DNA of 42,534 bases from Clostridia bacterium (GTDB taxonomy: Bacteria > Bacillota > Clostridia > Oscillospirales > Acutalibacteraceae), in NCBI GenBank assembly GCA_017524165.1, contig JAFWUH010000041.1, positions 1-42,534 on the forward strand, given 5' to 3'. The notes under the pieces are model-generated. The model was given only the letters and a program-made list of their open reading frames with translations. It had not been told where the DNA came from and did no database searches. Made by a program: the position numbers and the translations under genes. Shown here in pieces: positions 1,982 through 18,638 of the stretch. Position 1 is the first letter of the stretch. Every line of letters starts with the position of its first letter.

Positions 1982-2004
1982 AAGTGGAAAGAGGAGGTTT
2001 TTTT

Positions 2005-2505
2005 ATGCTGAAAGAATGTGCTGTAAATACAATTCGTGAAAATTGGATCCGTGCCATCGCAGATGAATGGATGTTGATTGCGGCCGGTACGGCAGAAGGT
2101 TATAATATGATGACGGCGTCCTGGGGCTTTGCCGGCGAGATTTGGGGCGAAGATTCGGTTTTGATTCTTGTTCGACCGCAGCGTTATACGATGGAGTTTT
2201 TGGAAAACAATGATACTTTTACCTTAAGCTTTTACGGCGAAAATCGGGCGGTTCATGCGGTGTGCGGTTCCAAATCCGGGCGGGATGTCGATAAAACCGC
2301 CGAAACTGGATTGACGCCTGTCTTTACCGACAGCTCGGTATATTTCGCCGAGGCAAGATTGGTTTTGCAATGTCGTAAGCAATACATGGATCATATCCGA
2401 CCGGAATCGTTTTTGATGTCGGAAAATCTCAAAAAATGGTATCCGAATGAAGATTATCATACAGTAATTGTAGGGAAAATAGAGCGCGCTTGGATAAAAC
2501 AATAA
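2005..2505 (+). CDS. Flavin reductase-like (flavoredoxin-type) protein
   Basis: This 166-aa protein has the layout of the flavin reductase-like split-barrel family: an N-terminal segment with MMTASWGFAG, the position where these proteins contact FMN, followed by VLILVRPQRYTMEFLENND, typical of flavoredoxins. Such proteins bind FMN and pass electrons in anaerobes. I chose ATG 2005 because the upstream GTG at 1984 would put the strong AGAGGAGG ribosome binding site inside the gene. It is monocistronic with its own promoter and diverges from the NifU operon. The electron partner is unknown. Confidence 0.8.
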   Translation: MLKECAVNTIRENWIRAIADEWMLIAAGTAEGYNMMTASWGFAGEIWGEDSVLILVRPQRYTMEFLENNDTFTLSFYGENRAVHAVCGSKSGRDVDKTAETGLTPVFTDSSVYFAEARLVLQCRKQYMDHIRPESFLMSENLKKWYPNEDYHTVIVGKIERAWIKQ

Positions 2506-2556
2506 AAATCGTCATAATGAATAACTAATGTTTTGTTTGATTGTGCAAAATTTCTC

Positions 2557-2585
2557 TTGCATTTTAGTGGAGCGGATGATATAAT
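2557..2585 (+). promoter_or_regulatory. Promoter of the secreted cohesin-like protein / RiPP locus
   Basis: TTGCAT (2557-2562), a 17-nt spacer and an extended -10 TGA-TATAAT (TATAAT 2580-2585). The leader of about 80 nt to the start at 2675 holds a small GTGTCG/CGACAC stem and a GGC-GAAA-GCC hairpin (2647-2656) just before the ribosome binding site. I match no known riboswitch. Confidence 0.75.
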
Positions 2586-2674
2586 AAAGCAAACCGTGAA
2601 ATATCGGTATGAGAATGTCCCATGTGTCGGACGACACAAATATTTTGGCGAAAGCCGGTTAGGAGAAAATTGAG

Positions 2675-4357
2675 ATGACAAAAGCAAAAAAGACACTTGC
2701 ACTTGTGATGGCCGTCATCATGTGCTTTACCATGATGATTGGATGTCTTACCATCAGTGCAGACAATCCCGGTTCAATTGCCGTGGAAACCACAACTATT
2801 GACGAGGGCACGGCTTCTGCCACAGTCAACGTCAACATCACCGGAGCTGCTTTTGCGGCCGGTATAATCACTTTAAATTACAATACCGCGTTAGGTACCC
2901 CTGCAGTTGCTTCTTCCAGCCAGTATTTGACGGTGAACACTGCAACCGCCGGCAAGGTTCGCTTGATCATTGAATCAGGCGCTACTACTGTTGCAAATCT
3001 TACTTCCGGTTCTTTCACCTTGACCTTCAGCAATTTGGCTGCTCTTGCAGTTGGTGATTACAACATCACCATTGATGCTGTTGATTTTGCCGATTATGAT
3101 GAGAATACGGTTGCGTTCAACACCACCAACGGCAAAGTTACTGTTCAGGCTGTTGTACAACATACGCATTCCTATGTCGGTGTTGTTACTGTGGAACCGA
3201 CCTATACTACAACTGGTATTATGACCTATACATGCTCAGGATGCGGTGACAGTTATACGGAGACTATTCCGGTTTTGGTTTGCGAACATACAAATCTGAC
3301 CTTCGTCAGCGCAACCCCGGCTACCTCAAGTGCGGCTGGTTCTATTACCTTTACATGTGCTGATTGCGGTCAGGAGGTTGTAGTTCCTGTTAGCTACTAT
3401 GAGCGTTATGTTTGCGCTTATGCCGGCGTTGGTTATGAATCTGAAATTCAGATGGCATTCAGTGCGCGTGACAGCCATTTGACTCGTCAGGGCGCCTATG
3501 ATGATGCATTTATTATGATGAACAAACACCGTGCTTCCGGCAATGTTGATACTACTGTTATGAATGTCAGTGAAGCTACTTCCGCTACCGTTTCCGGTAA
3601 CCCCTGCAAAACATGGGTACTTGGTGTTCCGGCAAAAGAAATGACAGAAGCTATTGATTCTTATGTTTTTGTGAAATATAACGGAACATGGTACAATGGC
3701 GCTGTGAACACAAAATCCGTTGAAAGCTATGCGTTGACAATTTTGTCCAACTCTGGTGTTACCGCTTCTGAAAAGACTTTGGTTGCCAACTTATTGACCT
3801 ACGGTGCAAAGGCACAGATTAACTTCAATTACAATCTTGATAATTTAGCAGATGCCAATCTTGGCTCCTATGCTTCTTATGTCACCACTACTGTACCGAG
3901 CATTGTAAATGCTTCTTCAAATCCTGCTTCCAATACAGAAGTAATTATTCACCAGCAGGCTTTGGATATGGGTTCAAAGGTTGGTTTGTACTTAGCTTTC
4001 CGTAACGATAGATACACCGGTGGAAAAGACTTAACAGATGAATATGTAAAGATTTCCTACGAAGGAAAGAACGGTACAGTTGAGTATGTTTATACTTCAG
4101 ATATGTATAAGTTAATGTCCGGTAGAACTGATCGTTACGAATTTGTTTTTGATATGATGGCGGCTAAGAATTTGCGTAAACCGCTCACCGTTCAAATCTT
4201 TACAGCTGATAATGTTCAGGTAAGCTGTGATTTGACGATTAGCATTGAGGATGCTGCCGCAAAGGCAATCGCTACTGGTATTTCTCAAAACGAAACGCAG
4301 CTGTACTATGCAATGATGAACTACAGCGATGCTGCTGCTGCTTTCTTTGGTGCTTAA
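2675..4357 (+). CDS. Secreted protein with cohesin-like and Cys-repeat domains
   Basis: This 560-aa protein begins with a signal peptide (residues 1-29: Lys-rich start, hydrophobic core, cleavage near SADN). Residues 30-155 form a beta-rich module with the pattern of cohesin-like domains (segments VNVNITGAAFAAGIITLNYN and DYNITIDAVDFADYDENT). Residues 165-240 hold two CxxC repeats of the HTHSY...TYTCSGCGDSYTETIP kind, common in clostridial surface proteins. Residues 240-560 are unrecognised. No sortase motif or C-terminal membrane anchor is seen. It starts at ATG 2675 behind AGGAG with its own promoter and is followed 96 nt later by the precursor-like peptide; a similar Cys-repeat protein precedes the second peptide at 18471. 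Function is unknown; adhesion or scaffolding is a guess. Confidence 0.75.
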   Translation: MTKAKKTLALVMAVIMCFTMMIGCLTISADNPGSIAVETTTIDEGTASATVNVNITGAAFAAGIITLNYNTALGTPAVASSSQYLTVNTATAGKVRLIIESGATTVANLTSGSFTLTFSNLAALAVGDYNITIDAVDFADYDENTVAFNTTNGKVTVQAVVQHTHSYVGVVTVEPTYTTTGIMTYTCSGCGDSYTETIPVLVCEHTNLTFVSATPATSSAAGSITFTCADCGQEVVVPVSYYERYVCAYAGVGYESEIQMAFSARDSHLTRQGAYDDAFIMMNKHRASGNVDTTVMNVSEATSATVSGNPCKTWVLGVPAKEMTEAIDSYVFVKYNGTWYNGAVNTKSVESYALTILSNSGVTASEKTLVANLLTYGAKAQINFNYNLDNLADANLGSYASYVTTTVPSIVNASSNPASNTEVIIHQQALDMGSKVGLYLAFRNDRYTGGKDLTDEYVKISYEGKNGTVEYVYTSDMYKLMSGRTDRYEFVFDMMAAKNLRKPLTVQIFTADNVQVSCDLTISIEDAAAKAIATGISQNETQLYYAMMNYSDAAAAFFGA

Positions 4358-4381
4358 TTCAACATATAGTTTTTTCATTTG

Positions 4382-4428
4382 ATTTCAAGACCAACCTGCA
4401 ATATATTTGCAGGTTGGGCTTTTGAAAT
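4382..4428 (+). terminator. Long intercistronic hairpin between secreted protein and peptide gene
   Basis: An 11-bp stem (4391-4401 with 4407-4417, loop TATAT) is extended by an outer 7-bp stem (ATTTCAA 4382-4388 with TTGAAAT 4422-4428). Only a short T-run follows the inner stem, so it may act as a weak terminator, mRNA stabiliser or processing site rather than a full stop. No convincing promoter lies between it and the peptide gene, so read-through is likely. Confidence 0.6.
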
Positions 4429-4453
4429 AATAATTTTGAAAGGAGTTTTAGCA

Positions 4454-4564
4454 ATGAAATTTGAATTTGAAGTAGTGCGTTTTAACGCTGAAGACGTTAT
4501 TACTGCCAGCAACTGCGGTGAAAATGACAACATGGGTACCGTTATTTGCGATTACAATGACTAA
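4454..4564 (+). CDS. RiPP precursor-like peptide, 36 aa, two Cys
   Basis: The peptide starts at ATG 4454, 9 nt after AAAGGAG. The larger frame open from 4379 has no ribosome binding site and is rejected. Its N-terminal half is acidic/aliphatic (KFEFEVVRFNAEDVITAS) and looks like a leader. The C-terminal half is short and rich in Asn, Asp and Gly, with Cys21 and Cys32. Directly downstream lie two radical SAM enzymes, a kinase-like protein, a PqqD-like recognition protein and a protease, the normal neighbourhood of a precursor. A peptide at 18471 shares the motif E-[VI]-[VI]-R-[FL]-...-D-[VI]-I-T-[AT]-S. The likely modification is a Cys-based radical SAM crosslink (sactipeptide- or ranthipeptide-like), but the chemistry, the cleavage site and the role are inferred. 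Confidence 0.75.
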   Translation: MKFEFEVVRFNAEDVITASNCGENDNMGTVICDYND

Positions 4565-4607
4565 TTCTTTTTGTGTTTAGTCTGCAGAGTGAACATTTAG
4601 TTCAAGC

Positions 4608-4646
4608 GGGGGACGATTTTTATGTCGTCCCCCTTTTTTAAAGGGG
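4608..4646 (+). terminator. Attenuator between precursor and maturase genes, with alternative RBS-masking stem
   Basis: A perfect 9-bp stem GGGGGACGA/TCGTCCCCC (4608-4616 with 4625-4633) is followed by T6 (4634-4639), a classic intrinsic terminator. The 3' arm and U-run (CCCCTTT, 4630-4636) can instead pair perfectly with AAAGGGG (4640-4646), the ribosome binding site of the radical SAM gene starting at 4656. Read-through would be needed to express the enzymes, giving more precursor than maturase. Confidence 0.8.
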
Positions 4647-4655
4647 ATTTTAAAA

Positions 4656-5435
4656 ATGGCATATAAAATTATACAAAATGCAATGGCACCCAAATGTACC
4701 GAGGCGGATGGACTGGATCTTACTTATAATAGCCATATGATCATGTGGGATCGCTGTAATTACCGTTGTAGCTTTTGTGAATTTGCTGCACATGATTTTA
4801 AAAGAACCGAAAACTATCATGATCTTACGCAGGATCAATTTATTACGGTGATTCTGCAACTAATGAAAAGTGGGAAAAATTTTAAGTTTTCCGGCGGTGA
4901 GCCGACTTTGAATCCATTTATCGAACAGCATTTGCAAATTGTGAAGCAACTTGGCGGAACGATTTTCTTTGATACTAACGGTTCAAATCCGGAGTTGGTA
5001 AAGCGTTTGCTGGATAAGAGATTAATTGATGTCTTGGCGGTTTCAATAAAAGGTCTTACACCTGATGAGTGCCTTGCAACTGCCGCAATCAAGAGAAAAG
5101 ATTTTTGTTGGGATAATCCCTTAAAAACCATTGAATATGGTGCTTATACAAAGGGTGTAAAAGTTATAGTGACACATGTTTGCTATAACGATGCTTCAAT
5201 TGAGGAGCTTCGTAGATTTTCTGATTTGCTGGAGCCTTTTCCGGATGTTTTTTATAAAATTAACAACCTTAATGGCAGTGTCCATAAGGATGAATCGCTT
5301 GTTCCTGTTAATTCCGATAAACTGATCGGACTGTTAAAACAATTAGTTGAAGAAAAACCTTTTTGGAAAAATAGAATGATTTATATCAATGATAAGTCCG
5401 GTGTAACAAACTATGATAGAATTCTATTTATGTAA
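4656..5435 (+). CDS. Radical SAM protein without SPASM domain
   Basis: This 259-aa enzyme carries the radical SAM CxxxCxxC motif as C34-NYR-C38-SF-C41 and the SAM-binding FSGGEPT segment near residues 77-83. It ends without the Cys-rich auxiliary-cluster domain found in its neighbour. Its size and the 'FKFSGGEPTLNPF' style recall activase-like or QueE-size enzymes (e.g. anaerobic ribonucleotide reductase activators), but no glycyl radical enzyme lies nearby. In this locus a peptide-modifying role is more likely (inference). ATG 4656 follows AAAGGGG by 9 nt; that site can be masked by the upstream stem. The SPASM gene begins 17 nt after the stop, so they form one operon. Confidence 0.85.
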   Translation: MAYKIIQNAMAPKCTEADGLDLTYNSHMIMWDRCNYRCSFCEFAAHDFKRTENYHDLTQDQFITVILQLMKSGKNFKFSGGEPTLNPFIEQHLQIVKQLGGTIFFDTNGSNPELVKRLLDKRLIDVLAVSIKGLTPDECLATAAIKRKDFCWDNPLKTIEYGAYTKGVKVIVTHVCYNDASIEELRRFSDLLEPFPDVFYKINNLNGSVHKDESLVPVNSDKLIGLLKQLVEEKPFWKNRMIYINDKSGVTNYDRILFM

Positions 5436-5452
5436 TTCCGGAGGCATATTAA

Positions 5453-6814
5453 ATGGTTGAAATTCAAAAAAAATCCGCTTTTTTATCTGCGTTAGTATCG
5501 CAACAAAAAAGGGATAAAAATAAAAAATACCGCCCGTTGTATTTTACTGAGTGGGTGCCGGATGAAGACGGCGTGTTAATATACAATAACTTTACAAAAC
5601 AACTGATTTTATTAACGAATGATGAGTTTTCAGCTTTGAAAGACAGTAATTATGCTGAACCATCCGAGTTGGTAGAATTTTTAATACAGAATTATTTTTT
5701 AGTACCGGATGATCACAACGATATTGCGCTTGTGGATCAAACTGTATTTCTGTTTCGTCAGCTTCCTCGAAAAAAAGAAATATATAACTATACCATTTTT
5801 ACAACAACTGCTTGTAATGCACGGTGTTTTTATTGCTTTGAGGCGGGAGCACCGGTCTACACCATGGACGAAAAGACGGCAAACGATGTTGCCGATTTTA
5901 TTCTAAAGAATCACGGCGATCACAAAGTGAGTTTTCGTTGGTTTGGTGGAGAGCCACTTTGCAATTGGCGTGCGATTGATATAATTTGTGCACGGTTGCG
6001 CGAAAAGGGGGTAAAGTATCAATCGGACATTGTAACAAATGCTTATTTATTTGACAAAGAGATGGTTCAAAGGGCAAAAAAAGATTGGCGACTCTATGCG
6101 GCACAGATCACTTTAGATGGGTGCAGGGATACCTATAATCGCGTCAAGAACTATAAAAATGGCGATATGAATGCCTTTGACAGGGTTTGCGATAACATTG
6201 AAGAGCTTTTAAAAAACGGTATTGCTACCGATATTCGTCTTAACATAGATAATCACAATGAGGATGAGCTGTTTGCACTGGTAGATTATTTAAATCATCG
6301 TTTCGGCAAGTATGAAAAAGGAAAAAAATTTCGCGTCCATGCGCATCCGCTTTATGAAAACACCGGTTATGTCAAAACCGTACACGATGATATGGAGAGG
6401 CAAGCGCTTACGGAAAAGTTTATTTCTCTTAGCGAGCATTTGCAAAAAATCGGTTTATATCCACGCGGCGAATTAGGGAAAGAGGTCAAATTTCAGCATT
6501 GCCTTGCCGATGACGATAAGGGGATAATGATTTCCCCGCAAGGAAACCTCGGACGCTGTGAGCATCATGTGAATGACGGCTTCTTTGCTTCGATTTATAA
6601 TTTCACAGAAAACAAACCGTGGAATAAGTATTATAAGCCAATCGAAAAATGCAAAACATGTATGGCATATCCAAGTTGTATTCGACCGACGATTTGCAGT
6701 CCGGAGAATAATGAATGTTTTGATTATATGCAATATATTCGTTTCCATAATATAAGGACTGCGATGCGCAATTGCTATGAGGATTTTTTAAAAAATCAAG
6801 GTGATATGTCATGA
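5453..6814 (+). CDS. SPASM-domain radical SAM peptide maturase
   Basis: This 453-aa protein has three parts. Residues 1-100 resemble the N-terminal recognition region of RiPP maturases. The radical SAM core contains C121-NAR-C125-FY-C128 and a WFGGEPL segment near 163-169. The C-terminal SPASM region has seven Cys (350, 369, 400, 403, 409, 415, 422), enough for two auxiliary [4Fe-4S] clusters. Enzymes of this build crosslink Cys or other side chains in precursor peptides, here most simply the 36-aa peptide at 4454. It starts at ATG 5453 after GGAGG and overlaps the kinase-like gene by 4 nt (ATGA), so translation is coupled. The exact bond formed cannot be predicted. Confidence 0.88.
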   Translation: MVEIQKKSAFLSALVSQQKRDKNKKYRPLYFTEWVPDEDGVLIYNNFTKQLILLTNDEFSALKDSNYAEPSELVEFLIQNYFLVPDDHNDIALVDQTVFLFRQLPRKKEIYNYTIFTTTACNARCFYCFEAGAPVYTMDEKTANDVADFILKNHGDHKVSFRWFGGEPLCNWRAIDIICARLREKGVKYQSDIVTNAYLFDKEMVQRAKKDWRLYAAQITLDGCRDTYNRVKNYKNGDMNAFDRVCDNIEELLKNGIATDIRLNIDNHNEDELFALVDYLNHRFGKYEKGKKFRVHAHPLYENTGYVKTVHDDMERQALTEKFISLSEHLQKIGLYPRGELGKEVKFQHCLADDDKGIMISPQGNLGRCEHHVNDGFFASIYNFTENKPWNKYYKPIEKCKTCMAYPSCIRPTICSPENNECFDYMQYIRFHNIRTAMRNCYEDFLKNQGDMS

Positions 6815-7536
6815 TTGTTCGTTTGGCGGATTTTAACATTGATTATCAATACAGATATTTGACTCAGCAGGAAATGTGTGCGGATTATATTGTCTCGGAT
6901 GATGAATCGGTTGATTATGCAATTCGTGTTCAAAAAAGAGAAATAGAAGATGCCGTTGCAAATGATTCGGATCATCACTATCCAAGTTATTTTGAAAGTC
7001 TTTTCTTTTATCGCGACTTAGCTGAATGGTTGCCATTGCATGAAGCGTTTGTTTTTCATTCTGCATGTTTTGATGTGGATGGCGTTGGGGTAGCCTTCAC
7101 CGCACATAGCGGAACAGGTAAAACCACGCACATGAGATTGTGGAAGGATATGCTGGGCGAAAGAATGACGGTAATCAACGGCGACAAACCCATCGTGAGA
7201 TTTTTTAAGGATGAGATAAACACGCCATATGCCTATGGTACTCCGTGGATGGGCAAGGAGCATTATGGCACCAATGCCAGAACGCGTCTGAAACATATTT
7301 GTTTTATCAATCGAAGTCTTGAAAATTCGGTGATTCCGCTTCAAAAAAAAGATGTTGTGAACCGTATTATGAATCAGGTTTACAGACCGCACGATTCGGT
7401 TTCAGTTTTGAAGACGATGCAACTGATTGATAGATTGCTTTCCTGTTGTGATCTTTGGCAGATCAACTGTAATATGGATCCTTCTGCCGCTGAAACGGCA
7501 TATAAAGAAATATTTAAACAAAAAAGAGGAGATTAA
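6811..7536 (+). CDS. HPr kinase/PEP carboxykinase-like P-loop protein
   Basis: This 241-aa protein has a Walker A motif AHSGTGKTTH around residues 98-107 (Lys104) and a Walker B-like VINGDKPIV about 30 residues later, matching HPr kinase-like proteins that recur in RiPP clusters. In some lasso peptide loci (paeninodin type), HprK-like kinases phosphorylate the precursor peptide, so a tailoring kinase is the best guess. It is too short and too different outside the P-loop to be the true HPr kinase. The first 80 residues are unrecognised. Its start overlaps the stop of the SPASM gene; the PqqD-like gene follows 1 nt after its stop. Thr or Tyr of the peptide at 4454 could be acceptors (inference). 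Confidence 0.78.
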   Translation: MIVRLADFNIDYQYRYLTQQEMCADYIVSDDESVDYAIRVQKREIEDAVANDSDHHYPSYFESLFFYRDLAEWLPLHEAFVFHSACFDVDGVGVAFTAHSGTGKTTHMRLWKDMLGERMTVINGDKPIVRFFKDEINTPYAYGTPWMGKEHYGTNARTRLKHICFINRSLENSVIPLQKKDVVNRIMNQVYRPHDSVSVLKTMQLIDRLLSCCDLWQINCNMDPSAAETAYKEIFKQKRGD

Positions 7537-7537
7537 A

Positions 7538-7804
7538 ATGAAATTAAAATACGATTTTGTCATTAATTCGGTTGCGGATAAAATGATTGCGGTTCCGATT
7601 GGAAAAGACACAGAAGATTTTAACGGCTTTATTAAACTGAATAATGTCGGTGCGTCGATTTTTACGATGTTAAAAGAGGATTGCACCGAAGAGCAGATCG
7701 TTTCGGCTTTGCAAAATGAGTATGAGGATGCCACGAACGAGGAAATCCGCGAAACGGTTAAAGAATTTATTGCTCGATTAGAAAAAGAAGATTTACTTGC
7801 CTGA
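7538..7804 (+). CDS. PqqD-like RiPP recognition element protein
   Basis: This 88-aa protein has the PqqD family form: a short beta-rich N-terminus, the hallmark segment FNGFIKLNNVGASIFTML, then an acidic helical stretch with EEQIVSALQNEYED. Such proteins bind the leader of a precursor peptide and present it to the radical SAM maturase. Start ATG 7538 follows AGAGGAG; the larger open frame upstream overlaps the kinase gene and is rejected. Close packing with the SPASM enzyme and protease supports a dedicated chaperone for the peptide at 4454, and possibly also the one at 18471 (inference). Confidence 0.85.
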   Translation: MKLKYDFVINSVADKMIAVPIGKDTEDFNGFIKLNNVGASIFTMLKEDCTEEQIVSALQNEYEDATNEEIRETVKEFIARLEKEDLLA

Positions 7805-7805
7805 T

Positions 7806-8270
7806 ATGGAGCAACGAGATATCAATAATGTGGAAGACCTGCTAAAGCACCAGTCGGAAGCGATGGCGATGACGGCTGGCGGCAGTATGCGCCCGTTATT
7901 TCGGCAACATCGAGATATTGTTGTTATTGAGCGCGTAACGCGACCGTTAAAAAAGAATGATGTACCGCTTTATCATAAAAAAGGATATCATCAGTTGGTA
8001 TTGCATCGAATTATTAAAATTACAGAGAACGGTTATGTTATTCGCGGCGATAATTTACTTGATAAAGAGACGGATATCACGGATCAGGATATTGTAGGCG
8101 TCTTAAAAGCATTTTACCGTAAAGGAAAATATGTTGTGTGCGCCGAAAGCTTTTGGTATCAGGTCTATATTCGTTTTGTCTATCTGCGCTTTCCGTTCCT
8201 TTACTTGTGGCGGCGCGGTCTTTATCCGGTTTTGCGCCCGATTTATCGTTTCATTTTTGGGAAAAAATAA
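7806..8270 (+). CDS. Signal peptidase-like S24/S26 protease of the RiPP locus
   Basis: This 154-aa protein matches the catalytic core of S26 signal peptidases: GGSMRPLF carries the Ser nucleophile, and LHRIIKI followed by VIRGDN provides His where bacterial SPase I has Lys. That is the Ser/His arrangement of ER/archaeal/SipW-type enzymes. An aromatic, Arg-rich C-terminal stretch (from about residue 115) could associate with the membrane. I chose ATG 7806; a TTG at 7797 overlapping the PqqD-like gene is possible, and no strong ribosome binding site favours either. Proteases of this type are repeatedly found with PqqD- and HprK-like genes. Removal of the precursor leader, perhaps near the ITAS segment, is the likely role (inference). 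Confidence 0.8.
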   Translation: MEQRDINNVEDLLKHQSEAMAMTAGGSMRPLFRQHRDIVVIERVTRPLKKNDVPLYHKKGYHQLVLHRIIKITENGYVIRGDNLLDKETDITDQDIVGVLKAFYRKGKYVVCAESFWYQVYIRFVYLRFPFLYLWRRGLYPVLRPIYRFIFGKK

Positions 8271-8273
8271 GGG

Positions 8274-8309
8274 AAGGACTGTCACGAAACAGACAGTCCT
8301 TCTTCTTTT
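8274..8309. terminator. Bidirectional terminator between RiPP locus and PBP gene
   Basis: A perfect 10-bp stem (8274-8283 with 8292-8301, 8-nt loop) is followed by a T-rich tract on the plus strand. On the minus strand it is followed, after a few bases, by TTTTTT. It ends the RiPP operon just after 8270 and overlaps the last codons and stop of the convergent PBP gene. Confidence 0.85.
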
Positions 8310-9910
8310 GACAACATCCATTCGGTAATGCGGTCGGATAAATCGGCAAATAGGGGTGCGGTGTCGCTTCCGGCGGAATCCTCTGAAAAGATAACAGCGA
8401 CATATTTCGGACTTTCTGCCGGGAAGAAGCCGCAAAACCAGCCGTGTGTGATTTCTCTGCCGTTTTGGTCGAAATGACCGGTTTGCGCTGTGGCAGTTTT
8501 GCCGCCGGCATTGCAAAGGGTCGGTTTTGCCGGAATGCCGGTACCGTTGGCAATAACGCCGACCAAATGCTGACGAAGTTGCAGTGCTGTTTCGGGTGAA
8601 AACACCTTTGTCGGATGGGGAAGTACCATATTTGTGCGGACGCCGTCCTTTAAGGTGGCTTCGGCCAGCGTGGGCAGACGGTAACTGCCGTCTGTGGCGA
8701 TAGCGCAGTAGAGGGTGGTCAAGGCGATTGGGGAGAGCAACAGTTCTCCTTGACCGATGCTCAAATTGGCAAGAGCGGCGGGATTGAGAAGCTTGTTTTC
8801 GCTTGGCAGATTACCCGCCGCAGATTCTAAACCGTCACAAAGACGGATCTTTTGACCGAAGTTTAATGAGGATGCCACGCGGTAAATGTTTTGCTCTCCA
8901 ACCGACAGGGCGAGTTGATAGAAAAAGGTATTGCAGGAAAAGGCGAGCGCCATGGATAAATCGACCAACCCGTGACCGCTTCGGTTATGACAGCGAAAGG
9001 TGCGGTCGGCAATCGTCATTCCGCCGGTACAGTTCCAAATACCGCCATCATAACCGTTTTCCAGTGCGGCGGCGGCAATACAAGGCTTGAAAACCGAGCC
9101 GACTGAAAAGGCTGAAAGACAACGGTTAAGGAAGGGAGAATCCTTTCGTTCTAAAGATTCGGAAAGGCGGTTGAGATCAAAGCCCGGTCGACTGACCAAA
9201 GCCCGTAGTTTGCCGGTTTCAGCCTCGCAGACAACAATCGCACCGCAGGTTATTTGTTCAGCGATCTGTTCGGCGAAGGACTGGATATCCGCGTTTAAGG
9301 TGGTAACAACACCGTTGCCGAACACCGAAGCGCTGTTTTCAAATTCCGCGGACAATCCCTTGAGCGCATTGCCGCGACCGTCGGTATAAAAGACGGCGTC
9401 GCAGGTTTGATCGCTGTACAGCAACTCATCAAAAGCGGCTTCCAATCCGCAAACGCCGTGATTTTCCGCATTGCAATAGCCGATGGTGTGCAGGGCAAGG
9501 CGATGATCGGAGGAATCGAAAATTTCGGTGCAGGAAATGCCGTCGCATTCCACCGGTTCAGGCAGGGTGCAAACGGTTGGCTTATTTGCAGAAAGGGCGG
9601 AGAGCACGGCGGGCAATTGACTGTCTTCCGCTAAAATCCGGCGGATGGTTGTCACGGCACGCGGCGTCGGGGAAACGGCGGCAACGATGCGCTTGGTTTG
9701 ATTGGTCAGCGGACGCATCTCGCAGTCAAAGATTGTGCCGCGCGGTCGAGCATAAGAAATACGAAAACTGCTTTGCTTTTTCTGAACCTCTGCAAGGTTG
9801 CCGGTCGCCAAAACGCCGACACGCAGTGCGGCAAACAAAAAGCAAAATATCAACAGAAAAAAACACAACACACTTCTGATCGAAAACTTTTTTTGAAATT
9901 GATCGGGCAA
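8282..9910 (-). CDS. Class B penicillin-binding protein (transpeptidase)
   Basis: This 542-aa protein has one N-terminal membrane helix (about residues 11-33), a PBP dimerisation-type segment with the motif RPRGTIFD, and a transpeptidase domain with the three active-site motifs: SVFK (Ser272, Lys275), SCN and KTA in GGKTATAQTG. It crosslinks peptidoglycan outside the membrane. It is somewhat shorter than typical PBP2/SpoVD proteins, and a sporulation or elongation role cannot be decided. The start is TTG 9910, needed to include the membrane helix. The ribosome binding site AGGAGGGA lies in the 3' arm of a 12-bp hairpin and the start codon in its U-run. It is the last gene of the thyX operon. 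Confidence 0.9.
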   Translation of the reverse strand: MPDQFQKKFSIRSVLCFFLLIFCFLFAALRVGVLATGNLAEVQKKQSSFRISYARPRGTIFDCEMRPLTNQTKRIVAAVSPTPRAVTTIRRILAEDSQLPAVLSALSANKPTVCTLPEPVECDGISCTEIFDSSDHRLALHTIGYCNAENHGVCGLEAAFDELLYSDQTCDAVFYTDGRGNALKGLSAEFENSASVFGNGVVTTLNADIQSFAEQIAEQITCGAIVVCEAETGKLRALVSRPGFDLNRLSESLERKDSPFLNRCLSAFSVGSVFKPCIAAAALENGYDGGIWNCTGGMTIADRTFRCHNRSGHGLVDLSMALAFSCNTFFYQLALSVGEQNIYRVASSLNFGQKIRLCDGLESAAGNLPSENKLLNPAALANLSIGQGELLLSPIALTTLYCAIATDGSYRLPTLAEATLKDGVRTNMVLPHPTKVFSPETALQLRQHLVGVIANGTGIPAKPTLCNAGGKTATAQTGHFDQNGREITHGWFCGFFPAESPKYVAVIFSEDSAGSDTAPLFADLSDRITEWMLSKEEGLSVS

Positions 9911-9957
9911 AAAAATCCCTCCTGTTTCTACTCTTGGTAGTATGCAACAGGAGGGAT
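9909..9957 (-). terminator. Terminator-like hairpin carrying the PBP ribosome binding site
   Basis: On the minus strand ATCCCTCCTGTT (9957-9946) pairs perfectly with AACAGGAGGGAT (9926-9915), followed by a U7 run (9915-9909). The loop contains a further CTAC/GTAG stem. The 3' arm is the Shine-Dalgarno site and the U-run contains the first base of the TTG start of the PBP gene. The hairpin could end the upstream operon, attenuate PBP expression, or mask its translation start. Confidence 0.75.
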
Positions 9958-9978
9958 CGGTTTATTCGTCGAATCGGG

Positions 9979-11217
9979 TCAGGTTTCGTCGGGTAACGCC
10001 ATGCGTAAATAGGCGCCTTTCGCTACCGGACGGTCAAACGGGATCTTGACCGTCATCATCGGGTGATTTGCTTGGTCGATCGGCGCGCCGGTTTCGTCCA
10101 ACAGCGTTTCGGTCGCCACGGGGAAGGGCGGTTTTCCGGCTTCTAAACAGTCTAAAAGTTGTCCGCGCAGGAATTTGTTTTTGACGGTGGCAAAAAGATA
10201 ACCGTCCTGATAACCGGTAACCATGGCGGCAACCGCATAGGATCGAATATAACCCGCCGTAGCGTAGTTTTGCCCGGCGGTCGGGCGTTCAAAATAAAAC
10301 CCGGTGGAATAGGGACGGTGGCTGATTTTTTCCAGTTCTGCCAAGGTCCAGTCGGGAGCCGTCCAGTCAGTTTGACATTCCCGCAGATGGTTTAATGCAC
10401 CGCGATAGGCGTTGGTCACCACAGCGATATAATAATCCGATTTGGCACGCCCTTCAATTTTGAAGGAGGTCACGCCCGCCGCACGAAGGCGGTCTAAATA
10501 ACGAATCATGCACAGATCGTTTGCGTTGAGAATATAGGTGCCTTTTTCCGATTCGGTAATGTCAAAATACTGTCCTTCGCGTTTTTCTTCCATTAAAGAA
10601 TAACGCCAACGGCAGGGTTGCGCGCATTCGCCGCGGTTGGCATCCCGTCCGGTCATGTAGGAAGAAAGCAAACATCTCCCCGAAAAGGAAACGCACATGG
10701 CACCGTGCACAAAACATTCCAATGCCAATTCAGGCGGTGTGTGCTGATGGAGATAGGAAATTTGTTCCAACGACATTTCACGCGCCAGCACTACGCGTTT
10801 GGCGCCCAGCTCGTAAAAAGCGGTTGCCGTTTGGCTGTTGACAATTCCTGCTTGCACCGAAACATGAATTTCGCAATGCGGAGCATACTTTTGTGCCGCT
10901 TTCAGGGTGCCGAGATCGGCAACGATCAACGCATCCGCGCCGAGTTCTTCTAACCGTGTGAGCATGGCGGGCAACTGTGCCATTTCTTCGTCATAGGGGA
11001 TCGTATTACAGGTCACATAGACCTTGACGCCGTGTTGATGGGCATATTGGATAGCGGTTGCCAGTGTATCGTCATCCATTGCCGCGGTGGCGCGCATACC
11101 AAACTGTCCGCCGCCCAGATAAACGGCGTCGGCGCCATAGGCAACGGCGGCGGTGAGTGCATCCAGACCGCCGACCGGACAGAGCAGTTCGGGTAGAGGT
11201 TGATTATCGGTCGCCAA
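9979..11217 (-). CDS. Peptidase U32 family protein
   Basis: This 412-aa protein has the U32 family pattern: an N-terminal LLCPVGGLDALTAAVAYGAD barrel start and the signature ECFVHGAMCVSFSGRC followed by RGECAQPCRWRY, whose Cys residues match the family's Fe-S ligands. Characterised bacterial members act in RNA hydroxylation (TrhP/YegQ on tRNA, RlhA on 23S rRNA) rather than general proteolysis; which reaction this one performs is not clear. The start is TTG 11217, which overlaps the mltG stop by 14 nt and lies 10 nt after AAGGAG within mltG, so translation is coupled. No signal peptide is seen. Confidence 0.88.
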   Translation of the reverse strand: MATDNQPLPELLCPVGGLDALTAAVAYGADAVYLGGGQFGMRATAAMDDDTLATAIQYAHQHGVKVYVTCNTIPYDEEMAQLPAMLTRLEELGADALIVADLGTLKAAQKYAPHCEIHVSVQAGIVNSQTATAFYELGAKRVVLAREMSLEQISYLHQHTPPELALECFVHGAMCVSFSGRCLLSSYMTGRDANRGECAQPCRWRYSLMEEKREGQYFDITESEKGTYILNANDLCMIRYLDRLRAAGVTSFKIEGRAKSDYYIAVVTNAYRGALNHLRECQTDWTAPDWTLAELEKISHRPYSTGFYFERPTAGQNYATAGYIRSYAVAAMVTGYQDGYLFATVKNKFLRGQLLDCLEAGKPPFPVATETLLDETGAPIDQANHPMMTVKIPFDRPVAKGAYLRMALPDET

Positions 11218-16198: not shown

Positions 16199-18466
16199 AT
16201 GAAAAAAACGATTTCCGTCATCCTATGCGTGGTGTTGCTGTTTGCCGCGTTGCCGACGGGGATGCTCCCTGTCAGCGCGGCGACTGTTTCCGGCAGTTGC
16301 GGCACTAAATTGACATGGACCTTGAATACCGAGACCGGGATATTGACGGTTAACGGTACGGGGGAGATGACTAACTGGTATTCTTCTTCTTCGAATATAC
16401 CATGGTATTCGTACCGGTCATCGATTAAAACCGTCACCGTCGGGGACGGCGTCACTTCTATCGGCATTTATGCGTTTTCCGGTTGCAGCGGGCTGACAAG
16501 TATCACGATTCCGGATAGTGTTACTTCCATCGGCAATCATGCGTTTTCCGATTGCGGCGGGCTGACAAGCGTCACCATCGGGGACAGCGTCACCTCCATC
16601 GGCGGTTGGGCGTTTTACGGTTGCGGCGGGCTGACAAGCGTCACCATCGGGGACAGTGTCACCTCCATCGGCAATTATGCGTTTTACAAATGCAGCGGGC
16701 TGACAAGCGTCACGATTCCGGACGGTGTCACTTCCATCGGCGGTAATGCGTTTCAAGGTTGCAGCGGGCTGACAAGCGTCACCATCGGGGACAGCGTCAC
16801 TTCCATCGGCGGTAATGCGTTTTCCGGTTGCAGCGGGCTGAAAAGCATCACGATTCCGGACGGCGTCACTTCCATCGGCAGTGGTGCGTTTTACGATACT
16901 GCATGGTATAACAATCAACCGGGCGGATTGGTATATGCGGGGAAGGTGGTATACACATATAAAGGAACCTGCCCTTCAAGTGTGAATATAAAAGAAGGAA
17001 CATTAGGCATAGCAGATGGTGCGTTTCGCGATTGCAGCAGGCTGACAAGTATCACGATTCCGGACAGCGTCACTTCCATCGGCAGTTTTGCGTTTTGCTA
17101 TTGCAGCGGGCTGACAAGTATCACGATTCCGGACGGCGTCACTTCCATCGGTGAAGGTGCGTTTCTCGGTTGCAGCGGGCTGAAAAGCGTCACCATCGGG
17201 GACGGCGTCACTTCCATCGGCAGTGCTGCGTTTTACGATACTGCATGGTATAACAATCAACCGGGCGGATTGGTATATGCGGGGAAGGTGGCATACAAAT
17301 ATAAAGGAACCTGCCCTTCAAGTGTGAATATAAAAGAAGGAACATTAGGCATAGCAGGTGTTGCGTTTTCCTATTGCAGCGGGCTGACAAGTATCACGAT
17401 TCCGGACAGCGTCACTTCCATCGGTGATCTTGCGTTTTTCTTTTGCGATGCTCTTACAACAGTGAACTATGAGGGAGACAAATCCGACAGAAAAAAGATT
17501 GCAATAGACGGCAGTAATGACGCGTTGTTAAACGCCACTTGGCATTATAATGCTTGTATTCATGACTTTGCGCTTTTGAAACGGGTGGCGAAAACCTGCG
17601 CCGCCGACGGGTATGATTTATGCCGCTGCACAAAATGCGGCGTGGTGGCACAACAGAATATTATTCCCGCGGGACACGATTATGAAGAAACGGTAGTTGC
17701 GCCGACCTGCACTGAAGACGGTTACACGCTTTATCAGTGCGTTGATTGTTCAGCGGCGTATAAAGATCAGTATGTTCCCGCACATCATGATTATGTTGTG
17801 ACCACGGTAGTTGCGCCGACCTGCACCGAGGGTGGATACACCCTTTATAGATGCGTATCCTGCGGTGACGGCTATCAAGGTGATTTTACCGAAAAACTGC
17901 CGCACGATTATCGGCAGACAATCCGTGCCGCCACCTGTACCGAAGACGGCTATAAGGAATACACCTGTGCGGGATGCGGCGACTGCTATAAAAAACCAAG
18001 CGGCGTGGCGGCAACGGGACACTATGTTTTTGACGGCGCGTGTGTGATTTGCGGCATGGCGGAAGAAACCATTCACCATATAGAAGAAAAAACCGCCGAA
18101 ATGATGCCCTATCTGCAAACGGCGGTACAGTTGAAGCAGCACGGCGATTCCTGCGACCTGCGGTTTGTTTCCATGGTGGACAGTGATTTGCCCGACTACG
18201 AATCGGTCGGATTTATCATGGAAATCATGGGTTATGAACAGAAGATTTCCACCCCGACGGTTTATACCTCTTTCCTGGATGAAACCGCCGGAAAAGTCAC
18301 CGCCGCGCAGTACGGCGCCGATTACTTTATCTTGACGACCGCGAATATCGGCAGTGACCTTTACGGTGAAAAAATTACCGTTCGACCGTATATTGAATTA
18401 GTCGGCGGCGGTATCATCAAAGGCAACGCGCTGGAATTTGTTTTAAACGATTATATCGGAGGATAA
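16199..18466 (+). CDS. Secreted BspA-like leucine-rich repeat protein with Cys-repeat C-terminus
   Basis: This 755-aa protein has a signal peptide (1-28, cleavage near VSAATV), then about 13 BspA-type LRR_5 repeats of 23 residues with the core GVTSIGxxAFxxCSGLTSITI (residues about 80-415). Two copies of a longer insert containing AWYNNQPGGLVYAGKV lie 114 residues apart. Residues 450-620 hold four Cys repeats of the kind HDYxxTVVAPTCTEDGYTLYxC. The last 120 residues are an unrecognised beta-rich domain, with no sortase motif or membrane anchor. BspA-like proteins act at the cell surface in adhesion; the ligand is unknown. I chose ATG 16199 over the adjacent TTG. The stop is 4 nt from the next peptide's start. 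Confidence 0.88.
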   Translation: MKKTISVILCVVLLFAALPTGMLPVSAATVSGSCGTKLTWTLNTETGILTVNGTGEMTNWYSSSSNIPWYSYRSSIKTVTVGDGVTSIGIYAFSGCSGLTSITIPDSVTSIGNHAFSDCGGLTSVTIGDSVTSIGGWAFYGCGGLTSVTIGDSVTSIGNYAFYKCSGLTSVTIPDGVTSIGGNAFQGCSGLTSVTIGDSVTSIGGNAFSGCSGLKSITIPDGVTSIGSGAFYDTAWYNNQPGGLVYAGKVVYTYKGTCPSSVNIKEGTLGIADGAFRDCSRLTSITIPDSVTSIGSFAFCYCSGLTSITIPDGVTSIGEGAFLGCSGLKSVTIGDGVTSIGSAAFYDTAWYNNQPGGLVYAGKVAYKYKGTCPSSVNIKEGTLGIAGVAFSYCSGLTSITIPDSVTSIGDLAFFFCDALTTVNYEGDKSDRKKIAIDGSNDALLNATWHYNACIHDFALLKRVAKTCAADGYDLCRCTKCGVVAQQNIIPAGHDYEETVVAPTCTEDGYTLYQCVDCSAAYKDQYVPAHHDYVVTTVVAPTCTEGGYTLYRCVSCGDGYQGDFTEKLPHDYRQTIRAATCTEDGYKEYTCAGCGDCYKKPSGVAATGHYVFDGACVICGMAEETIHHIEEKTAEMMPYLQTAVQLKQHGDSCDLRFVSMVDSDLPDYESVGFIMEIMGYEQKISTPTVYTSFLDETAGKVTAAQYGADYFILTTANIGSDLYGEKITVRPYIELVGGGIIKGNALEFVLNDYIGG
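16440..17450 (+). repeat. Intragenic LRR tandem repeats with a 342-bp duplication
   Basis: Repeats of 69 bp (23 codons) are highly similar at DNA level. A near-identical segment beginning TTACGATACTGCATGG occurs at 16891 and again at 17233, exactly 342 bp (114 codons) apart, indicating recent in-frame duplication. Confidence 0.85.
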
Positions 18467-18470
18467 CGGC

Positions 18471-18638
18471 ATGACAAAACACATGGAAAAAGCAACGATG
18501 GAAATAATCCGGTTGACTGACGATATTATTACCACATCGGGCGGCGGACTCGGCGGACTGGTGAACGGCGGCGAGAATAACGAATCCGGCTGGAACACGG
18601 GTATCGGCGGTCTTTCGGATATCTTCGGGAACTCTTAA
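18471..18638 (+). CDS. Orphan precursor-like peptide, 55 aa, Gly/Asn-rich tail
   Basis: This frame is not linked to a larger gene. It starts at ATG 18471, 8 nt after GGAGG formed by the last codons of the BspA-like gene, so translation is coupled. Residues 1-23 (ending MEIIRLTDDIITTSG) match the leader-like half of the peptide at 4454: EIIRLTD-DIITTS aligns with EVVRFNAEDVITAS with one gap. The tail is rich in Gly and Asn with single Trp and Phe and no Cys, so it cannot form the Cys crosslinks possible in the other peptide. No maturation genes adjoin it. It may use the enzymes at 4656-8270 or be a different kind of secreted or signalling peptide (inference). No similar characterised product is known to me. 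Confidence 0.65.
   Translation: MTKHMEKATMEIIRLTDDIITTSGGGLGGLVNGGENNESGWNTGIGGLSDIFGNS

Follow-up and report, generated by a model that had tools for sequence, protein, structure and literature searches.

The DNA considered here (hereafter the window) is a stretch of 42,534 nucleotides of contig JAFWUH010000041.1 from a Clostridia bacterium of the family Acutalibacteraceae (assembly GCA_017524165.1), and our subject is a locus at its positions 4454-8270 that resembles those for ribosomally synthesised and post-translationally modified peptides (RiPPs). Six open reading frames (ORFs) follow one another there, all on the forward strand: a short peptide, two radical S-adenosylmethionine (SAM) proteins (rSAM1 and rSAM2, the latter of SPASM type), an HprK-like kinase, a PqqD-type RiPP recognition element (RRE) and an S26-type peptidase (Table 1). 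From sequence comparison we consider it rather probable that the locus couples a phosphopeptide pathway similar to that of the linear polyphosphorylated peptide (LPP) family with a Cys-directed SPASM radical SAM enzyme. A first-pass annotation, made from the letters alone, had described the same six-gene order and had read it as a RiPP-type locus with precursor, kinase and protease; all six frames were found as described, and comparison with other genomes backs the reading.

Table 1. Features of the locus and its surroundings (positions in the window)
Feature	Position	Strand	Remarks
Secreted protein, 560 aa	2675..4357	+	Signal peptide-like start; C-terminal repeat L..AL..YG..A..YF; directly upstream of the precursor
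Hairpin CCAACCTGCAA/TTGCAGGTTGG	4391..4417	+	Between secreted gene and precursor; read by eye, not in the list of the terminator scan
Precursor peptide, 36 aa	4454..4564	+	AAAGGAG, similar to a ribosome-binding site, before ATG; leader profile
Intrinsic terminator-like hairpin	4608..4633	+	Between precursor and enzymes; 10 pairs, T6
rSAM1, radical SAM protein, 259 aa	4656..5435	+	PF04055 E 5.5e-18; CX3CX2C, no SPASM Cys
rSAM2, SPASM radical SAM peptide maturase, 453 aa	5453..6814	+	PF04055 E 6e-14
HprK-like kinase, 241 aa	6811..7536	+	His83, SGTGKTTH P-loop, NGDKP, GTPWxGK
PqqD-type RRE (lasso B1-like), 88 aa	7538..7804	+	PF05402 E 1.2e-13
S26-type (archaeal/SipW-like) Ser/His peptidase, predicted leader peptidase	7797..8270	+	TTG start; ATG at 7806 equally plausible
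Second leader peptide, Cys-free	18471..18638	+	Follows a secreted LRR-type protein; distance to rSAM2 about 11.6 kb; E 3.2e-5

The precursor and its leader family

Contigs of named genomes supplied 306 stretches fitting the search patterns, 261 of which encode rSAM2 relatives; the best 80 of the 261 gave 78 loci, and with four further loci and the window, less one duplicate, the set came to 82. These were grouped manually into 42 non-Bacteroidales loci (mostly Clostridia) and 40 Bacteroidales loci. Genes were counted within 6 kb of rSAM2, and the counts are lower bounds, as many contigs end. Outside Bacteroidales a leader match (E < 1) was found in 35 loci, the kinase in 27, the RRE in 25, the S26 peptidase in 19 and all four in 17; in Bacteroidales the RRE was found in 36, a leader in 18 (only 3 at E <= 1e-3), the kinase in 10, the S26 peptidase in 7 and all four in 6.

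The leader profile was built from 27 of 29 peptides (the window peptide included) gathered from the loci by motif and by eye. With the window peptide removed (26 rows), it was run against 1186 frames of the window and recovered 4454-4564 at E 2.3e-7, far above chance, in agreement with the earlier precursor call. The reversed frames gave E 4.2 at best, and the only other match below E 1 was the peptide in 18447-18638 (E 3.2e-5). The frame is also conserved beside these enzymes in many gut and rumen genomes, a point on which the annotation had staked its precursor beforehand. On these comparisons we believe that the 36-aa frame is a genuine precursor.

Two sets of peptides are compared below. 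The linked set (38 peptides) comprises non-Bacteroidales leader matches at E <= 1e-3 that lie no more than 2.5 kb from rSAM2; the unlinked set (34 peptides, duplicates removed) comprises matches at E <= 0.01 in loci without an rSAM2 match, L137, L139 and L159 having been taken out as rSAM2-linked. The profile that collected leader peptides from the genomes of the family used the leader columns only and found them (E <= 0.01) in 22 of 150 genomes; in the loci of this search no rSAM2 was found beyond three linked ones.

By analogy with LppA, and with the conserved Ser set at core position 3, cleavage is predicted after Ile16; it would yield the leader MKFEFEVVRFNAEDVI and the core TASNCGENDNMGTVICDYND, with Ser19 as the third core residue. 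The calculated monoisotopic masses are 4088.75 Da for the whole precursor including Met1 and 2134.79 Da for this core. Few cores have no further Ser or Thr behind the leader-end Ser (3 of the 36 with Cys and 4 of the 34 without), by which that Ser is singled out as the candidate acceptor common to nearly all. The shortest cores in the wider set have six residues (GGSCGE, L044). A cut after the leader-end Ser itself, on the -3/-1 pattern of signal peptidases, was rejected: Phe stands at -3 in 16 of the 38 linked leaders, and cleavage by LppS leaves the Ser as core residue 3 (PMC13381572).

rSAM2 and the cysteines of the core

Besides three cluster Cys, rSAM2 has seven C-terminal Cys, as expected of the seven-Cys SPASM protein named in the annotation; in an alignment of 34 sequences that includes the window's, C350, C369, C400, C403, C409 and C415 are invariant and C422 is almost invariant. 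The best PDB match of its profile is 5wgg (E 3.2e-21), which we take to be CteB, a thioether-forming ranthipeptide maturase. Searches of the PDB with single sequences gave no match; the profiles of rSAM2, the kinase and the RRE did match, and the leader profile did not.

A core Cys is present in 36 of the 38 linked peptides and in none of the 34 unlinked ones (Fisher p 3e-18, which is too strong a value, since common descent makes the rows non-independent and a single family supplies most of the 34). The exceptions among the linked peptides are one of the two precursors of L056 and the third copy in L046, which stops inside the leader. Bacteroidales linked peptides, counted apart, have a core Cys in 3 of 3. 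Four weak linked rows outside Bacteroidales (E 1e-3 to 1) were left out of the count: L028, L067 and L071, all with Cys, and L062, discussed below; so were three unlinked rows, all Cys-free (window 18447-18638, C21:22283 and C30:9419). The contrast is also seen within single genomes, that of the window, G190 and G217 each holding both kinds of peptide. This tracking is, in our view, the best argument for an action of rSAM2 on Cys; to judge by it, rSAM2 is most likely a Cys-directed, probably thioether-forming addition to an LPP-like pathway. Three tandem copies of rSAM2 stand behind one to three precursors in L038, L046 and L049.

PapB, an enzyme of SPASM type, forms Cys thioethers (-2 Da; PMC9413430), and our locus shares with ranthipeptide/PapB-type systems the combination of a SPASM radical SAM enzyme and a Cys-containing core. 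Two C-x3-D runs (CGEND and CDYND) occur in the window core, and both of its Cys fit the PapB pattern. As a rule for the family, CX3[D/E] was rejected: in 36 cores with 69 Cys, D or E stands at +4 from Cys in 9 cases against 11.4 expected from shuffling the cores with the Cys fixed. This is a difference from the PapB type (PMC9413430), as is the score of 71.1 of 340 bits that the window's proteins reach at best with the PapB model. At +3 the count is 17 of 69 against 13.4 expected (p 0.15); at +1 to +4 together it is 46, with 39.0 expected (p 0.038, without correction and one of many tests). E directly before Cys occurs 17 times against 8.9 expected, which is nominal only, many residue-offset pairs having been tried. 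With no outstanding spacing between Cys and acceptor, and with the curated NCBIfam maturase models all under their cut-offs on rSAM2 (the best being TIGR04463, 138.6 of 525), it is conceivable that the SPASM enzyme makes another change (a carbon-carbon bond, epimerisation or methylthiolation) and that the Cys serve, for example, as metal or disulfide ligands. We nevertheless consider this unlikely, given that core Cys tracks rSAM2 and that its closest solved relative, 5wgg, presumably forms thioethers.

The cassette, its relatives and its neighbours

Ten window proteins (1984-11217) were scanned with Pfam and NCBIfam. The kinase has no match at or above cut-off there, and with 11.1 of 240 bits for TIGR00679 it was rejected as an HPr kinase/phosphorylase proper. 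When 29 kinase sequences, the window's included, were scanned at E <= 0.1 (a table without cut-offs), 26 matched ScmC, 22 HprK-related B, 19 HprK-related A and 18 hpr-ser, the window kinase itself matching no family. The kinase profile finds HPr kinase/phosphatase 1ko7 (E 1.2e-4) and PEP carboxykinase (4e-4). The HPr-kinase label given to this protein is thus backed by its relatives (hpr-ser and 1ko7), not by the window protein alone. In the PDB, the RRE profile matches TbiB1 (E 2.4e-8), PbaB1 (9x90, 7.1e-8) and LppB (9x8z, 3.2e-4). The peptidase remains under the cut-offs of TIGR02228 (34.9 bits, cut-off 51.85) and NF046067 SipW (19.6 bits, cut-off 190) and gives weak S24/S26 signals; its Ser30 and His70 are invariant in 25 aligned sequences, window included. 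Together with the Pfam matches of Table 1, this bears out the PqqD-like recognition protein, the signal-peptidase-like protease and the short radical SAM protein of the annotation.

The LPP core set, published in May 2026, includes an HprK-like kinase, an RRE and an S26 peptidase (PMC13381572). The LPP kinase adds one to four phosphates (+80 Da units) to core Ser3 only; the SipW-like peptidase, helped by the RRE, cuts after residue -1 and cuts the unphosphorylated precursor poorly; and LppA needs YxxP for RRE binding (PMC13381572). The shifts of -2 Da (crosslink) and +80 Da (phosphate) that the annotation had suggested looking for thus each have a published precedent, in PapB and in the LPP kinase. 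No final product of the LPP family was known at its publication, and the family was described as confined to Bacillota (PMC13381572). Like the lpp locus of Paenibacillus alginolyticus, ours has an HprK-like kinase, a discrete RRE, a SipW-like S26 leader peptidase and a short precursor with a conserved leader, then x-x-Ser, and a variable core; it differs in having EDVITAS in the leader in place of FETxxS (PMC13381572). The annotation had known of no described product with this gene set. That no longer stands for the kinase, RRE and S26 peptidase. The LPP main text names no radical SAM enzyme, no Clostridia and no Bacteroidota, with zero occurrences of radical, rSAM, SPASM, crosslink, Clostrid and Bacteroid. 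No paper that brings a radical SAM enzyme together with an HprK-like kinase and an S26 peptidase turned up in the literature searched, the coverage of which was partial. We presume that the window locus likely works like LPP; it may or may not be LPP proper, because YxxP, the NTP transferase and the transporter are missing here and the RRE is not closest to LppB.

Loci of the family without rSAM2 are found as well, in related genomes and in the window's own; their kinase, RRE and S26 peptidase beside Cys-free leader peptides correspond to the LPP core set (PMC13381572). In L138 and L167 a large secreted protein is followed by the leader peptide, kinase, RRE, S26 peptidase and NTP transferase (PF14907); L168, L169, L171 and L172 are variants with the kinase and an NTP transferase or an ABC exporter, some genes being recognised by eye. 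PF14907 proteins were found in L006, L167, L168 and contig C4 of the window's own genome, and ABC exporters in C4, L006 and L171. The cluster on contig C4 (L130 1764-8069) has no radical SAM gene; it comprises an ABC exporter, a leader peptide of 139 aa (E 0.0043), RRE, S26 peptidase, kinase and NTP transferase, and also a membrane protein, acyltransferase-like by eye; this cluster could serve the window peptide in trans. In G066, of the same genus, a Cys-free leader peptide lies behind a secreted protein (L117 6471-9139) with RRE and S26 genes diverging alongside; the kinase is on another contig, and there is no rSAM2 match.

Phosphorylated lasso peptides (paeninodin, BsfA; PMC10368454, PMC7533575) resemble our system in their HprK-like kinase and PqqD-type B1 RRE and, in sister loci only, in a YxxPxL-type leader. 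However, no macrolactam cyclase or B2 protease was found among the ten proteins scanned. The SynChlorMet cassette brings together a PqqD homologue, an HprK-related protein and radical SAM proteins (TIGR04248, TIGR04249, TIGR04251), and the 26 ScmC matches noted above are a likeness to it. Membership was rejected (ScmD 17.6 of 100, ScmF 32.4 of 400, and no ScmC match of the window kinase at E <= 0.1); no paper on SynChlorMet by that name was found in the literature searched.

rSAM2 is rare among close relatives: with the source genome included, it was found in 2 of 150 genomes of the family (E <= 1e-40) and in 5 of 295 of the order (1e-45), and none was found in two genomes of the same genus (G066, G319). 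The window kinase, RRE and S26 peptidase are 50%, 59% and 52% identical to those of the sister cassette L010, and 25-47% identical (partial alignments included) to rSAM-free copies in the own and related genomes; from these identities the cassette looks inherited as a unit. Five loci of Prevotella and other Bacteroidales (L011, L016, L031, L032, L033) have leader-like peptides of the form KKKFEKP..QVV/EVV, which are weak matches, followed by rSAM2, RRE, kinase, S26 peptidase and a second RRE. The system seems, from such gene orders, to extend beyond Bacillota. Among named isolates, Faecalibacterium prausnitzii APC923/51-1 (L077) has two precursors along with the kinase and rSAM2 on a contig that breaks off there, and Prevotella sp. 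tf2-5 (L013) has rSAM2, RRE and a leader-like peptide only.

The view of the six genes as one unit was not sustained: rSAM1 is not conserved with the others, and the upstream secreted gene recurs instead. No rSAM1 relatives were found in 390 other genomes of the class (E <= 1e-20), in the other loci (E <= 1e-3) or among plasmids (E <= 1e-8), and rSAM1 was accordingly rejected as part of a common two-enzyme set. Phages gave one partial match; of 398 genomes searched in the phylum, 12 others contain partial relatives (31-47% identity, E <= 1e-12), and the own genome has one more such relative. We regard rSAM1 as an idiosyncratic addition that, on this distribution, is not part of the conserved unit.

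The secreted gene at 2675-4357 probably belongs to the unit, as judged by its recurrence. It has no Pfam match at cut-off. A homologue (30% identity over 594 positions, E 9e-50) stands in the same position next to the precursor of L010. In 13 linked loci (window, L007, L009, L010, L023, L036, L050, L054, L064, L073, L074, L081, L082) the leader region is preceded on the same strand, at a distance of 5 to 83 bases, by the end of an ORF of at least 355 aa. A signal-peptide-like start was recognised in 8 of the 13, in a reading that did not extend to L023 and L081 and in which three ORFs were cut off by the end of the stretch. Many other linked loci, such as those of Lachnospiraceae type, have the S26 gene upstream instead. 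Secreted proteins upstream of leader peptides often end in one or two of the repeats given in Table 1. A profile of these tails, seeded from the same tails, matched upstream ORFs in 12 of 29 and 7 of 28 cases and control ORFs in 3 of 557; all three of the latter are secreted genes that lie close to leader peptides, and two of these duplicate upstream genes that had been counted.

In two loci the tail of the secreted protein resembles the peptide core. In L169 the secreted protein (7341-8402, reverse strand) has the C-terminus DEGWSDWWTPEY, and the leader peptide that follows it immediately (7186-7302, reverse strand) has DKGWSDWWTPEF, with nine common codons (GWSDWWTPE) and three synonymous changes only; in L006 a 209-aa neighbour ends in EDVIELPIITV and a precursor in IELPIIPVK. 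Tail and core may share a function, for example surface display or binding. The second leader peptide of the window is nearly identical to two others (C21:18479-18556 and C21:22283-22360 on contig C21, L115), the common core being GGGLGGL(I/V)NGG(D/E)NNESGWNTGIGGLSD(V/I)FGN(G/S); each of the three stands directly behind a large secreted-type protein, and the C-termini of those proteins are alike.

The annotation had further called the block AT-richer than its neighbours. This is so against the right-hand neighbours (36-42% vs about 52% GC); against the left-hand one (39-45% GC) the contrast is much smaller, and positions 24.5-25.5 kb of the window are equally AT-rich (36% GC). Base composition thus sets the block apart only partly. 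The terminator-like hairpin at 4608-4633 would hold the precursor transcript above that of the enzymes; terminator-like sites on both strands of the region number 15 against 5.7 expected. In a search for an empty site, the flanks gave a PBP homologue at 45-46% identity in two genomes of the same genus. A plasmid element was rejected, as among plasmids only 2 distant kinase relatives were found, or 3 with another query.

Proposed pathway and its possible meaning

From the gene content, the leader family and the pattern of core Cys we infer the following course of events. The lasso-B1-like RRE would hold the leader, and rSAM2 would act on the two core Cys, most likely with the formation of one thioether or two (each about -2 Da). 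Phosphorylation of the conserved Ser, which is the third core residue if cleavage occurs after Ile16, would be the task of the HprK-like kinase and would add 80 Da per phosphate; the S26 Ser/His peptidase would then cleave off the leader. Export would depend on functions encoded elsewhere, as would any nucleotidyl or glycosyl step, because the transporter and the NTP transferase are missing here and are present in the second LPP-like cluster of the own genome. rSAM1 may perform an additional step special to the source genome.

Several points weigh against this proposal. Unlike LPP, the window cluster contains no NTP transferase or MsbA-like transporter, and among the PDB matches the RRE is nearer to lasso B1 than to LppB. 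The window leader has no YxxP, YxxPx[hydrophobic] being present in 25 of the 38 linked and 23 of the 34 other peptides. Ser is the final residue of the matched leader in 36 of 38 linked and 33 of 34 unlinked peptides, a conservation that is partly built in, as the training leaders were cut by a rule that included this Ser. The spacing from Cys to Asp or Glu is clearly enriched at no offset among the 69 Cys, and L062, a weak linked leader match (E 0.096, under the threshold used), lacks Cys. Finally, on our own reading of the alignment, a Gly of the kinase appears to sit where lasso kinases carry the first of the two Asp of their conserved motif (PMC10368454).

This last point suggests that phosphorylation might have been lost, the kinase-like protein being a remnant or an ATP-dependent adaptor and only rSAM2, the RRE and the peptidase being active. 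NGDKP replaces the Asp-Asp pair in 11 of the 29 kinase sequences, the window's included, and NDD is found in the other 18. Against this, all 29 share the P-loop Lys104, His83 and D125 (the second Asp), and the candidate Ser acceptor ends nearly all linked leaders; we consider the loss improbable, to about the same degree as another chemistry of rSAM2. A role of the peptide as a small regulator, or as a companion to the secreted protein, rather than as a RiPP precursor, with its position beside the enzymes due to chance, is very doubtful: many leader peptides do immediately follow large secreted-type genes, and for several of them the 1.5 kb on either side contain no cassette gene, and in two loci tail and core are alike, but a leader match accompanies rSAM2 in 35 of 42 non-Bacteroidales loci, core Cys tracks rSAM2, and the same logic is proven experimentally for LppA (PMC13381572).

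As to the broader meaning, the following picture is tentative, and we hold it with somewhat less than even confidence. Gut and rumen Clostridia and Bacteroidales would possess an undescribed branch of phosphopeptide RiPPs in which the SPASM enzyme was added together with the core Cys; the peptides would be both cross-linked and phosphorylated and would act with the co-encoded secreted protein at the cell surface, the present locus carrying a one-off further radical SAM step. F. prausnitzii APC923/51-1 and Prevotella sp. tf2-5 are named isolates in which the doubly modified peptide could be sought. A radical SAM branch with a nearly strict core-Cys rule and apparent Bacteroidales members would widen the LPP family, and it would suggest how modifying enzymes join an existing system of leader and RRE.

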